From Desulfonatronum sp. (GTDB taxonomy: Bacteria; Desulfobacterota; Desulfovibrionia; Desulfovibrionales; Desulfonatronaceae): a stretch of DNA of 50,887 nucleotides. Below the pieces are notes generated by a model. That model worked only from the letters and a program-made list of their open reading frames with translations, was not told the DNA's origin and did not search any database. Where the stretch lies: contig DSBL01000145.1 of NCBI GenBank assembly GCA_011049455.1, positions 1 to 50,887 of the forward strand, given 5' to 3'. This document shows, in pieces, positions 2,822-25,649 of the stretch. The number at the start of each line of letters is the position of its first letter. Positions within the stretch are counted from its first letter, which is position 1. The position numbers were made by a program, and so were the translations under genes.

Positions 2822-3149
2822 GATGATCAGGATGGAATAGAAAGGGTGCCCCGACATGGTCTTGGCAGATGGAGCGCCGCTCTTTGGAGAAACATGGAGT
2901 CCCTTCCTAAAGACGGGGTCGCGGTATCGGGACGAATTCGATAACGCCATGGAGAAGGCTTGGAGCAAGGACGTTGCACTAAGCCAAAAACGGATGACAA
3001 AAGACCGAGAACGAAAAAACAATTGGTTGCGACAGCACGATTTTAAAGAACAGACAAAAACAGTCTTTTCAGTAGGATCAAACTGAGGCGTCAGGAGCAG
3101 TGCCAACTTTTGAATTGGCATCAAAAGACAAATGGGTACAATTGTACCC
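2758..3149. other. Intergenic stretch between jetD and the toxin gene
   Basis: No convincing gene is present. On the minus strand a 42-codon frame (2729-2857) starts ATG and would give a small protein with one hydrophobic segment, but it has no ribosome site and its end overlaps jetD. On the plus strand a 76-codon frame (2856-3086) also lacks a ribosome site and resembles nothing recognisable. The right end carries the promoter of the toxin-antitoxin pair. Confidence 0.5.
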
Positions 3150-3151
3150 AT
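3115..3151 (+). promoter_or_regulatory. Toxin-antitoxin promoter with 20-bp palindromic operator
   Basis: TTGGCA (3115-3120), a 16-base spacer and TACAAT (3137-3142) form a good sigma-70 promoter. The perfect palindrome ATGGGTACAATTGTACCCAT (3132-3151) covers the -10 element and runs into the toxin start codon at 3150. Its GTACA/TGTAC arms resemble the TGTACA cores bound by YefM-type antitoxins. The expected start of transcription (about 3149-3150) coincides with the ATG, so the mRNA is probably leaderless; no Shine-Dalgarno sequence is present. Confidence 0.7.
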
Positions 3152-5815: not shown

Positions 5816-5998
5816 GAAAGTCCCTCCCTTTGTCAGCAATGTCCGGACGCTATGGCCGGGCGGCCGGCTTGGCAAAATCACATCCGCGAAGAACAAGGGG
5901 AGGGCAAGGAACGCCTTTTACGGAATTTGATCAAAAGGGCGCGGCCAGGAAGGTTCGGCCTGAAGCGGTGCAAATCCGATGAGGCGATGTGCGCGGCG

Positions 5999-6078
5999 CT
6001 TCCCTACGACGGCATGATCCGTGTCAGGTTCCAAGGGTCGGGGCGCGTGCCCCCTCTCAGCCTTGCGGCTCCCCCAGC
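5999..6078 (-). promoter_or_regulatory. TPP riboswitch (THI element)
   Basis: Read on the minus strand, this segment has the conserved THI-box blocks in order: GGGGGAGCC, GGCTGAGA, a GC-rich variable stem, GACCCTTGGAACCTGA, and CGGATCATGCCGTCGTAGGG. These form the pyrimidine- and pyrophosphate-sensing arms of the TPP aptamer. It precedes thiE-thiC by about 180 bases. No clear intrinsic terminator is visible between aptamer and thiE, so control could be at translation initiation or through Rho. Confidence 0.96.
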
Positions 6079-6197
6079 AAAAAATACAAGCGGCTCTTTC
6101 AACCGGCGCCGTTATCCTGATGCCGGCTGAAAGTGTTGCCGAATGTCAAGACAAGACGACGTTTACCAACATTTTCTTGAAAACAAAAGAATCCTGG

Positions 6198-21730: not shown

Positions 21731-22654
21731 TTACGCCTTGCCGGAGCAGCCCAGGACGTTGCGCATCTTGTGCCGGACCAGTCCTGCGATGGCCTCCCGC
21801 GCCGGCTTGAGGTAGGTACGCGGATCAAATGCTTCCGGATTCTCGGCAAAGCATTTGCGGATCGTGGCGGTCATGGCCAGCCGCAGGTCCGTATCGATGT
21901 TGATCTTGCAGACCCCTAGCGTGGCGGCCCGGCGCAACATGTCCTCGGGCACGCCCCTGGCGCCGCCTATTTTCCCGCCGTACTGGTTGGCCATGGCCAC
22001 GAATTCCGGGAGCACTGAAGACGCGCCATGCAGCACCAAGGGATAGTTGGGCATCAGGGCGCTGATTTTTTCCAAGCGCTCAAAATCCAGGCGAGGTTCT
22101 CCCTTGAATTTGTAAGCGCCGTGGCTGGTGCCAATGGCGATGGCCAGGGAGTCGCAGCCGGTGCGCTGCACGAATTCCACGGCCTGGTCCGGATCAGTGT
22201 ATACGTTTTCCGCAGAGCTGACTTCGTCCTCCACGCCTGCCAGACGCCCCAGTTCAGCCTCAACAAACACGCCGCGCCCATGGGCGTATTCCACGACCTG
22301 TTTGGTAAGCGCTATGTTTTCCTCATACGGCAGGTGGGACCCGTCGATCATCACGGAAGTAAATCCACCGTCAATGACCGCCTTGCAGATCTCAAAATCC
22401 TGGCCGTGATCCAGATGCAGGACCACCGGCAGGTCCGTGTCCGATACAGCGGCCTCCATCAATTTGAGGATGTAGGTCTGACCGGCGTATTTGCGCGCAC
22501 CGGCGGACACCTGGAGGATCAGGGGGGAACGCTCTTCTTTTGCCGCGGACATTATCCCCTGGACAATTTCCATGTTGTTGACATTGAACGCACCCACAGC
22601 GAATCCTTCGGCGTAGGCCCTGGTAAACATGGCTTGAGGCGAGGTCAAAGGCAT
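21731..22654 (-). CDS. fba: Class II fructose-1,6-bisphosphate aldolase
   Basis: A 307-residue zinc enzyme of glycolysis/gluconeogenesis. VVLHLDHGQDFE carries the catalytic Asp and the first zinc His, VMIDGSHLPYEENI and VEAELGRLAGVED supply further ligands, and LVLHGASSVLPEFV and KINIDTDLRLAMT bind the substrate phosphates. The ATG at 22654 has GGAGG 6 bases upstream; a longer open frame upstream is rejected for this reason and for lack of similarity. The gene stands alone, with a 400-base upstream region that contains an 18-bp perfect palindrome. Confidence 0.97.
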   Translation of the reverse strand: MPLTSPQAMFTRAYAEGFAVGAFNVNNMEIVQGIMSAAKEERSPLILQVSAGARKYAGQTYILKLMEAAVSDTDLPVVLHLDHGQDFEICKAVIDGGFTSVMIDGSHLPYEENIALTKQVVEYAHGRGVFVEAELGRLAGVEDEVSSAENVYTDPDQAVEFVQRTGCDSLAIAIGTSHGAYKFKGEPRLDFERLEKISALMPNYPLVLHGASSVLPEFVAMANQYGGKIGGARGVPEDMLRRAATLGVCKINIDTDLRLAMTATIRKCFAENPEAFDPRTYLKPAREAIAGLVRHKMRNVLGCSGKA

Positions 22655-22721
22655 GGTTTCCTCCTTCTTGAAAAGAATAGGGATGATATATGTGTTGCAG
22701 GCGGCGGACATTCTCAGCCGA

Positions 22722-22739
22722 CCAGCGGATATCCGCTGG
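22722..22739. promoter_or_regulatory. 18-bp perfect palindrome upstream of fba
   Basis: CCAGCGGATATCCGCTGG lies 68 bases upstream of the fba start codon. It is a perfect dyad with no spacer, as expected for a dimeric repressor operator. It is within promoter distance of fba on the minus strand. No neighbouring regulator gene points to an owner. Confidence 0.55.
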
Positions 22740-22948
22740 CGAAAAGCATAACCGATCTTTGGAAATAATGCACCCCTGCCGGACAGACATGATCGGGGCC
22801 AAAGTGATCCGTGATGTCCGCGAATAGGGCGTTCAATTCTGCCGTTATCCTGCGAGACAACTCTTGCCCCTGCCGGCACAAAAGCCCAACAGCCTGTTTT
22901 TATAAGAAAAAATATTATTCTTTGGATTCAGCCGGCCTTGAATTATGG

Positions 22949-23002
22949 ATTTTAAACAGATATGTTTAAAATTTCTCATTGTGTATAAAGTTGAACTATA
23001 AT
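22949..23002 (+). promoter_or_regulatory. Promoter and 10-bp inverted repeat upstream of the methyltransferase-nikR-folE2 operon
   Basis: ATTTTAAACA (22949-22958), four bases, then TGTTTAAAAT (22963-22972) is a perfect inverted repeat. It is followed at once by a weak -35 (TTCTCA, 22973-22978) and, 18 bases on, a perfect TATAAT (22997-23002). The first gene starts 60 bases downstream. The repeat abuts the -35, a classical operator or activator position. NikR, encoded in the operon, is one candidate, but the known NikR operator of E. coli has a different sequence and spacing. Confidence 0.6.
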
Positions 23003-23061
23003 GCTTTTCCACGCAAGCGCGCTGGCTCCATGCATGGCTGAATGATGAGGTCCCGGTTGGA

Positions 23062-23703
23062 ATGCAAATGATGGTTGTGAATGTTCATCAGCGGCAGTGG
23101 AAGGTGCATCGGCCGGGCAACCTGGAAGAGCTTTGGGAAAAACTGGGAAAGGACGATTTCGGCCCTGACGAGAGAATTCCTTATTGGGTTGACCTGTGGC
23201 CCTCGAGCAATGCTTTGGTTGAATGGTTGGAACTGAACCAGGGCCAACTCAAGGGGGCGGTTTGTTTGGATGTGGGTTGCGGCTTGGGTTTAAGCGCCTG
23301 TGTGGCATCCTCGCGAGGGGCACGGGTCATTGGGCTGGATTACATGGCCGAAGCGTTGCGCTTCGCAGGAATAAACGCCAGGGCCAACGCGGTTGCCTCT
23401 CCGCTCTGGGTGCAGATGGATTGGCGGTTCCCGGCCATCAAAGCACAAAGCTTTGATCTGATATGGGGAGCGGATATTTTTTATGAAAGCCGGTTCGCCA
23501 AACCGCTGATCGCACTCTTCAACCGGGCTTTGGCGCCAGGGGGGCGGATCTGGCTGGCCGAACCGAAGCGCAGTGTTTCCTCGCTGGCCTGGGACATGTT
23601 ACGCGCGCATGGCTGGACCCTGCGTCCAGCCATGCGCCAAGCGGTGCAGACCGAAGGCTACTACGTGGACATAACCATTTGGGAAGCTGAAAAAAAGGAG
23701 TAA
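23062..23703 (+). CDS. Class I SAM-dependent methyltransferase
   Basis: A 213-residue protein. The SAM-binding motif I is CLDVGCGLGLSA (about residues 68-79), motif II has VIGLDYMAEAL, and FDLIWGADIFYE and LAPGGRIWLAEPKRS are the later conserved strands. The N-terminal PYWVDLWPSS block and overall layout resemble Methyltransf_16/Nnt1-type protein lysine methyltransferases, but the substrate cannot be read from sequence. It is the first gene of an operon with nikR (3 bases apart) and folE2. An alternative ATG lies two codons downstream. Confidence 0.85.
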   Translation: MQMMVVNVHQRQWKVHRPGNLEELWEKLGKDDFGPDERIPYWVDLWPSSNALVEWLELNQGQLKGAVCLDVGCGLGLSACVASSRGARVIGLDYMAEALRFAGINARANAVASPLWVQMDWRFPAIKAQSFDLIWGADIFYESRFAKPLIALFNRALAPGGRIWLAEPKRSVSSLAWDMLRAHGWTLRPAMRQAVQTEGYYVDITIWEAEKKE

Positions 23704-23706
23704 CCC

Positions 23707-24126
23707 ATGGGCAAGACGATTCGCTTCGGCGTTTCCCTGGATTCCGATTTGCTGGAAAAATTTGACGCCCTATGTGATGAACGGTCCTACCAAACCCGCT
23801 CCGAAGCCATTCGCGACCTGATCCGAAACATGCTTATCCAGAAGGAATGGGAAAATGTGCAAGGAGAGACCGCAGGCACCCTGAGCATGGTTTTCGACCA
23901 TCATCAGAGTGATTTGGCTCAAAAACTGACGGAATTACAGCACGACTACCTGGATATCATCGTGGCCTCTTTGCATGTGCATCTGGATCACAACAATTGC
24001 ATGGAAATTCTTGTGTTGCGCGGTATTGGCGAAAGGCTGCGCGATTTAGGTCAAAAACTGACCTCAACCAAGGGCGTGAAGCACGGTAAGCTGACATTGA
24101 CCACCACGGGCAAAAACCTGAAATGA
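23707..24126 (+). CDS. nikR: Nickel-responsive regulator NikR
   Basis: A 139-residue ribbon-helix-helix/ACT regulator. The N-terminal RHH part is [18 protein letters not shown] with SEAIRDLIR. All four high-affinity nickel ligands seem to be kept: His79 (LQHDY), His90 and His92 (LHVHLDH) and Cys98 (NNCMEI), matching His76, His87, His89 and Cys95 of the E. coli protein. NikR normally represses nickel uptake genes. None is present here; the gene lies between a methyltransferase and folE2, whose start overlaps the nikR stop (ATGA). Confidence 0.94.
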
Positions 24127-24980
24127 AACCTTGGTGCGTCTTGCGTGATGTTCAAAAAACGCCGGCCTCCGTACCCGTGGACATCGACAGGGTCGGGGTG
24201 CGGCACTTGCGCTTTCCTCTGGTTGTCCGGGAACGCGGTCAAGGGCGGCAAAATACCGTGGCCAAAGTGGAGATGGGCGTGGATCTGCCGGCCTGCTTCA
24301 AGGGCACGCACATGAGCCGGTTCGTGGAAACACTGCGGGATTGGTCCGGCATTTTGGATTATTACAGCCTGAAACATCTGCTGTCTGACATCAAGAACCG
24401 ACTGGAGGCACAAAAAGCCTGGATCAGCTTTCAATTCCCTTTTTTTCTGGAGCATGCCTCCCCGTCCACCGGCAGTTCGGCCCGGATGGATTATCAATGC
24501 CAGGTTTCCGGAGAGTATGCCGGGCGTGACCTGCTGTTCCACCTGGCTGTCGAAGTGCCGGTGATGACGGTCTGTCCATGTTCCTTGGCCATCTGCGAAC
24601 AGGGAGCCCACAGCCAGCGGGCCATGGTCCGGATCGCCACCCGGAACAAAGGCCTGATCTGGCTGGAGGACCTGATTGAACTGGCCCAAGATGCGGGCTC
24701 ATCCCCGGTCTATGCGCTGTTGAAACGCGAGGATGAAAAAAAAGTAATCGAGCAGGCCTTCGGCAAACCCTGTTTTGTGGAGGATGTGGTCCGCAACGTA
24801 AGCAGCGGCCTCGGCAGGCTGCCCCAAGTGCTCTGGTGCCACGTGGAAGTTGAAAGCCAGGAATCCATTCACAATCACAGCGCATACGCATGCATTGAAC
24901 GAACCATTGTTCAAGATCCCGACACAACAAGCCAAACCTGGGATCCAGGCTTGAACAAGCAGCAAAAGGGGACGCCGTGA
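24123..24980 (+). CDS. folE2: GTP cyclohydrolase IB (FolE2)
   Basis: A 285-residue enzyme turning GTP into dihydroneopterin triphosphate, the first step of tetrahydrofolate and queuosine synthesis. The metal site residues are in [17 protein letters not shown] (Cys151/Cys153 region and His163). [10 protein letters not shown] and HNHSAYA are further family blocks. FolE2 is the non-FolE type and can work with several metals. In many bacteria it is controlled by zinc; here it is translationally coupled to nikR, which is unusual. No folE was seen in the window, so its product may feed QueD as well as folate. Confidence 0.95.
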
Positions 24981-24986
24981 AATATT

Positions 24987-25012
24987 TACGCAACATCGTA
25001 AGACGTTGCGTA
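24987..25012. repeat. Hairpin just after folE2
   Basis: TACGCAAC (24987-24994) and GTTGCGTA (25005-25012) form a perfect 8-bp stem with a 10-base loop, 6 bases after the folE2 stop. No T-run follows, so a Rho-independent terminator is not clear. The remainder of 24981-25268 shows no gene with a ribosome site and family similarity. Confidence 0.5.
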
Positions 25013-25268: not shown

Positions 25269-25649
25269 ATGACCGTCAGCCCCAATGTCCAGGCCCTGCA
25301 GGCGTTTTCCTTGTCCCGTCAGATCGGCGCCAACAATGTCGCCAACCTGAACACGCCGGAATTCAAAGCCTCTGGCATGACCCTTGAGACCGGTCCACGA
25401 GGGCTTGGAGTCCGTCCGGGAAGCATTGATCAGGACACCCGGCCCGGCCCCCTGGAGCCTGCCATGAAAGGCGTCCAGGATAAGCAGGGACGGCTGGAAA
25501 CTGTTTGGGGCGTCCACGAAGGCAGCAATACCGACTTGGTCAGGGAAATGGGTTCTTCCATTCAGGATGAGCGAGCGTTCCAGGCCAATGTCGCCGCGAT
25601 CCGAACCTGGGATAAAATGGTCGGCCATCTGCTGGATTTGCGTGTGTGA
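25269..25649 (+). CDS. Short flagellar rod/hook-like protein (FlgC/FlgG-like termini)
   Basis: A 126-residue protein preceded by AAAGGAGG at good spacing. The N-terminal block LSRQIGANNVANLNTPEFKAS is the ANNxANxxTPxF signature of flagellar rod/hook proteins. The C-terminal block NTDLVREMGSSIQDERAFQANVAAIRTWDKM corresponds to the family's C-terminal coiled-coil segment (its middle runs VxEMxxxIxxxRAFxAN). The length is near that of FlgC (about 135-150), but no flgB or fliE is adjacent, so it may be a solitary rod-like paralogue. The stop overlaps the GTG start of the rhomboid gene. Confidence 0.75.
   Translation: MTVSPNVQALQAFSLSRQIGANNVANLNTPEFKASGMTLETGPRGLGVRPGSIDQDTRPGPLEPAMKGVQDKQGRLETVWGVHEGSNTDLVREMGSSIQDERAFQANVAAIRTWDKMVGHLLDLRV

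Follow-up and report, generated by a model that had tools for sequence, protein, structure and literature searches.

An order-wide operon joining the nickel regulator NikR to GTP cyclohydrolase IB in the Desulfovibrionales, with candidate nickel control of folE2 in part of the Desulfovibrionaceae

The window analyzed here, that is, the whole stretch of 50,887 nucleotides from a Desulfonatronum contig, contains three consecutive genes on the forward strand. These encode a Methyltransf_16/METTL21-like methyltransferase of the seven-beta-strand AdoMet type with 213 amino acids (23062-23703), the nickel-responsive ribbon-helix-helix regulator NikR of 139 amino acids (23707-24126), and the GTP cyclohydrolase IB FolE2 of 285 amino acids (24123-24980). 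Only 3 nucleotides separate the stop codon of the methyltransferase gene from the start codon of nikR, and folE2 starts inside nikR, with the stop codon of the latter overlapping the start codon of the former in an ATGA at 24123-24126. The preliminary description of this DNA had proposed a three-gene operon, and the open reading frames were indeed recovered at these coordinates, with their families above the Pfam or NCBIfam cut-offs. Upstream of the first gene, TATAAT at 22997-23002 on the forward strand is a putative -10 element for transcription of the operon, and sequence inspection suggested a weak candidate -35 box, TTCTCA, at 22973-22978. The three genes are presumably co-transcribed, which would place a nickel regulator and the sole GTP cyclohydrolase I of the organism in one transcript.

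The NikR protein contains an N-terminal ribbon-helix-helix domain (RHH_1, 37 bits) and a C-terminal NikR_C domain (115 bits) according to Pfam, and scored 215 bits against the NCBIfam model PRK04460 (NF003381; cut-off 105). As previously described, all four nickel ligands are present (H79, H90, H92 and C98 in the window numbering), and this His-His-His-Cys set is invariant in 32 order-mates. The protein, which is encoded in a single copy in the 2.87-Mb genome, is predicted to be a canonical NikR that would bind both nickel and DNA and control the uptake of nickel as well as nickel-hydrogenase genes. The nickel enzymes in its own genome include two [NiFe] hydrogenase large-subunit loci, the second of which (L292, G000:C41:20530-21783) has an in-frame TGA near the C-terminal part, possibly encoding a selenocysteine. 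In a search for CbiM-type permeases, we likewise found no nickel transporter gene near the operon; the only such permease gene of the genome is found on another contig. This permease was rejected as a nickel transporter, as its gene has a cobalamin riboswitch in front.

The methyltransferase had been described as protein-lysine-type, and at the level of the family this was borne out. It exceeded the Pfam cut-offs for both Methyltransf_11 (43 bits, the higher score) and Methyltransf_16 (PF10294; 28 bits versus a cut-off of 21), and with a profile of 28 relatives of the METHYLTRANSFERASE, the best match to a solved structure was human METTL21A (4lec; E 1.6e-17), closely followed by METTL21B and C. 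Calmodulin-lysine methyltransferase and METTL21A/B/C/D were also matched by the predicted model (pLDDT 92), and the residues D138 and Y141, which form the DxxY motif of methyltransferase family 16, are invariant in the 28 relatives. The protein thus shares profile similarity, fold similarity and DxxY with the METTL21 and family 16 protein-lysine methyltransferases, but differs from the METTL21 family in being bacterial, with about 20% identity, and in being encoded together with folE2. By these comparisons it is a Methyltransf_16/METTL21-like enzyme with a predicted lysine methylation activity. A perfect inverted repeat, CGCATGGCTGGAC...GTCCAGCCATGCG, was also observed inside its coding sequence at 23606-23636.

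Next to the candidate promoter is a perfect dyad, ATTTTAAACA-GATA-TGTTTAAAAT, at 22949-22972 (24 bp), in which two 10-bp arms are separated by 4 bp. When the local sequence was shuffled 1000 times, such a dyad appeared in only 5 cases, so that it reflects more than base composition. The preliminary description had called it an operator-like dyad adjoining the promoter and envisaged that NikR binds to it, bringing folE2 under nickel control in the window organism. The perfect arms and the neighboring TATAAT speak for this idea and were confirmed, but the operator label is unsupported as far as NikR is concerned. The NikR box of Desulfovibrio is a 27-28 bp inverted repeat, GTGTTAC-N13/14-GTAACAC (Rodionov 2004, PMC545781), to which the dyad showed no match, either in its half-site or in its geometry of 24 bp with N4. 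Moreover, the N-terminal strand of the window NikR, RFGVSL, is the same as in the NikR of species that use GTGTTAC, and the best NikR-box match upstream of the operon was 8/14, which is the commonest value in shuffles. The dyad is also the sole match in the 2.87-Mb genome at up to 3 mismatches and has no counterpart in congeners, where the region is filled by another gene. We therefore rejected the dyad as a NikR operator and consider it highly improbable that NikR acts on folE2 through this element, which is probably not a nickel site.

A less strained, if still doubtful, explanation is that the dyad serves another regulator, which would control either the operon or the divergent gene fba. 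In the window, fba (21731-22879, reverse strand) is located between gap and the operon, whereas the congeners (L063, L064, L065 and L067) have gap and, in the place of fba, a conserved open reading frame for 187 amino acids that is coupled to the methyltransferase gene and for which no Pfam or NCBIfam match was found. The dyad is specific to the arrangement with fba, but it matched no known motif and has no second copy in the genome.

To place the locus in a broader context, we searched for the NikR and FolE2 families in 199 genomes of the order, which is the Desulfovibrionales as judged from named relatives (Desulfovibrio piger, Solidesulfovibrio, Salidesulfovibrio, Pseudodesulfovibrio, Desulfomicrobiaceae and Desulfohalobiaceae). 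NikR was identified in 190 and FolE2 in 191 of these genomes. Both coordinates were among the matches listed for 126 genomes, a non-random sample of the better-scoring matches. In 124 of these, nikR immediately precedes folE2 in the same orientation, mostly with a gap of less than 100 nucleotides between the domain matches; in the other two, the matches are located at contig ends. For comparison, 80 NikR loci were drawn from all prokaryotes, 26 from inside the order and 54 from outside it. A folE2 gene was identified at 23 of the 26 loci inside the order and at none of the 54 outside, whereas a CbiM/NikM permease gene was found within 3 kb of nikR at 19 of the 54 loci outside the order and at none inside. 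It therefore looks as if folE2 took the place of the usual partner of NikR, a nickel transporter, at the base of the order. The adjacency had been taken as meaningful unless it was limited to one strain, and it extends throughout the order; a strain-specific coincidence was rejected on the basis of these counts.

The loci inspected span six families, and the flanking genes vary by family while the block stays. The upstream neighbors are ftsEX, a xanthine phosphoribosyltransferase gene with an ABC ATPase gene, or an unknown open reading frame, and the downstream neighbors are recA-alaS or genes for a flagellar-rod-like protein and a rhomboid protein. In the window, the protein of 126 amino acids encoded at 25269-25649 resembles flagellar rod/hook proteins reduced to their N- and C-terminal parts (Pfam), and this type of protein recurs downstream of folE2 in several families. 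The methyltransferase gene precedes nikR in most loci and is absent in family f3; in most families it forms part of the block, yet it is dispensable. In the closest congener (G025, NikR 96% identical), it is reduced to a C-terminal remnant (L066:654-776), with nikR-folE2 intact. Two genomes without NikR (G180 and G185) have the methyltransferase gene directly before folE2, and in two without FolE2 (G061 and G157) it is missing, so that the association leans, on few cases, toward folE2. Since nikR was found without folE2 in two genomes of the order and folE2 without nikR in four, neither gene needs the other. We conclude that the methyltransferase-nikR-folE2 block is an old operon that has been conserved order-wide. 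It has apparently not been reported, a novelty that is provisional, as the search covered open-access papers, none of which was found to treat NikR and folE2 together.

The enzyme at the end of the operon is likewise well defined. It scored 277 bits against GCHY-1 in Pfam (cut-off 25) and 255 bits against NCBIfam NF010200 (cut-off 215), and was aligned nearly end to end with the solved FolE2 chains 2r5r, 8g6c and 3d2o, including the CPCS and GAHxQR blocks and a further block of 10 residues. We assign it to the GTP cyclohydrolase IB family, with a predicted metal-flexible activity. GTP cyclohydrolase catalyzes the first step to folate, and no GTP cyclohydrolase I other than FolE2, present once, was found in the 2.87-Mb genome. 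The zinc-type FolE (type IA, PF01227) was over the cut-off in only 2 of 120 order genomes, which are exactly those without FolE2. FolE is thus nearly absent from the order, which leaves FolE2 as the housekeeping GTP cyclohydrolase I; a role as a metal-sparing paralog for metal starvation was rejected, as there is no FolE partner. It was also observed that FolE2 is replaced by the zinc-type FolE in G061 and G090.

In other bacteria, FolE2 is Zur-linked, and it had been suggested that the usual link of folE2 to zinc control is of relevance here. If so, folE2 would be under the control of Zur, with nikR as a passenger. However, no Zur-like box (at least 11/14 against ATGCAAC-N3-GTTGCAT) was found upstream of any operon examined, and there is no zinc-dependent FolE that FolE2 could spare. 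We give this explanation virtually no credence, and the link to zinc control seems inapplicable to these operons. The parallel with the Zur-controlled folE2 of Bacillus and Pseudomonas is that a metal-dependent regulator is tied to a metal-flexible cyclohydrolase, but FolE2 backs up a zinc-dependent FolE in those bacteria, whereas it is the sole enzyme here and the regulator is a nickel sensor.

Evidence that bears on nickel control came from the alignment of operon promoters within genera. In the genus g22 (family f5, Desulfovibrionaceae; 20 species), a 28-bp inverted repeat, GTNNTAC-N14-(A/G)T(A/G)(A/G)CAC, is located at -88 to -122 from the methyltransferase start in 17 of the 20 species by the strict pattern. 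It has the geometry of the published Desulfovibrio NikR box (PMC545781) and encloses TTGAC, the likely -35 box, which suggests a repressor position. A 28-bp repeat, GTGTATA-N14-NTNACAC, was also identified near the start of nikM/cbiM in all five g22 species considered. When 193 positions were ranked with a matrix built from the nikM sites, the operon box came first in 10 of the 20 species and never below ninth, and the converse matrix, built from the operon boxes, ranked the nikM box first in three of the five. Beyond g22, the operons of g28, g5, g21 and g16 retain an intact half-site GTGTTAC/GTAACAC, and g23 has GTGGCAT-N14-ATACCAC; no such signal was seen outside f5. The exact half-site GTGTTAC is present upstream of the operon in 26 of 121 loci as compared to 2.4 expected by shuffling, an excess inflated by relatedness, as related species do not provide independent observations. 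The loci belong to seven genera, but the highest-scoring of 200 shuffles reached this number as well.

In the previously described regulon of Desulfovibrio and Geobacter, NikR boxes are found at nikMQO, nikK and hydAB, the last of which was already predicted as a NikR target, and neither folE nor GTP cyclohydrolase is mentioned in the text (PMC545781). Our data share with that regulon the regulator family, the 27-28 bp inverted-repeat box and the predicted hydrogenase targets, but differ in that the box precedes methyltransferase-nikR-folE2 in a Desulfovibrionaceae genus, as well as hdr-mvh operons. Near CbiM genes, strict matching yielded no convincing consensus boxes; the divergent 28-bp GTGTATA-N14-TTAACAC sites in g22 surfaced by alignment only. 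The operon promoters of five of the six families, namely the family of the window and f2, f3, f4 and f6, yielded no NikR box, nor was any found in the congeners, either before the operon or before a second, riboswitch-free CbiM gene. NikR control of folE2 therefore cannot be general.

In the genome of the window organism, the only NikR-box match with at most 2 mismatches is a box-like dyad, GTGTTACGATTTTCAATATTGTAACGG (L291:399-425, on contig C72), located 89 bp before hdrA in the Hdr-Mvh nickel-hydrogenase operon hdrA-hdrC-hdrB-mvhD-mvhG-mvhA-protease. The number of box-like matches genome-wide is at or below that expected by chance, and the site is thus weak alone. However, the orthologous hdrA-hdrC-hdrB-mvhD operon in G196, a g22 species from another family (L293), has GTGTTACGTATTACTAATTTGTAATAC upstream, a 13/14 match that was reached by none of 4000 shuffles. 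Considered together, the two boxes indicate that the window NikR most likely regulates this electron-bifurcating hydrogenase operon.

We favor the hypothesis that, in part of the Desulfovibrionaceae, the 28-bp box across the -35 element of the operon would allow nickel-bound NikR to repress its own operon, folE2 included, and that this negative autoregulation would take in the synthesis of pterin, folate and queuosine precursors. The window genus lacks the box; there, nikR is still adjacent to folE2 and translationally coupled with it, folE2 is probably not nickel-controlled through the operon promoter, and NikR would act elsewhere, most likely on the hdr-mvh operon. The nickel-linked control of folE2 that had been proposed is thus credible in a related genus, where a NikR box overlies the promoter, but not in the window genus, in which there is no such box. 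Nickel control of folE2 in part of the Desulfovibrionaceae seems fairly probable from the promoter alignments and is unsupported in the window organism. We have moderate confidence in the model as a whole, with its order-wide operon, partial repression of folE2 and hydrogenase target, in which nickel binding, DNA binding, the direction of regulation and co-transcription are presumed.

We also considered the possibility that the linkage exists without regulation, such that folE2 does not respond to nickel to any meaningful extent. The ancestral operon would then have been retained either to keep co-expression steady or because folE2 relies on the promoter of nikR and on the start-codon coupling. 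Such a scenario would fit with the missing NikR box in five of the six families, with the continuation of the operon from an unrelated upstream open reading frame in the congeners, and with the persistence of nikR or folE2 alone. On the other hand, the block has been kept through at least 40 genera with both flanks changing, and the NikR box is located over the operon promoter in f5 genera. We regard linkage without regulation as rather unlikely and prefer nickel repression in part of the Desulfovibrionaceae.

A more speculative extension of the repression hypothesis is that nickel, via NikR, sets the level of the sole GTP cyclohydrolase I in the Desulfovibrionaceae while the METTL21-like methyltransferase acts on a protein of the pathway, perhaps FolE2; we propose this only tentatively. 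If true, the supply of folate and queuosine precursors would be tied to the nickel status of the cell, and hence to hydrogenase and one-carbon metabolism, and the entry step of folate and queuosine synthesis would join a nickel regulon. The operon would also give genetic access to a bacterial relative of human METTL21 lysine methyltransferases, and the substrate of this relative might be read from the neighboring genes. With short boxes and a linkage that extends throughout the order, these ideas are directly testable in tractable species of Desulfovibrio and Pseudodesulfovibrio.

Additional sequence elements were observed in the window. Directly after folE2, at 24987-25012, is a perfect dyad, TACGCAAC-N10-GTTGCGTA, and the best match in the window to a combined NikR-site matrix, at 24977-25004, overlaps with it, probably by chance. 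Further away, we identified a perfect 20-bp palindrome, ATGGGTACAATTGTACCCAT, at 3132-3151 and a TPP riboswitch (69 bits) at 5984-6085 on the reverse strand.
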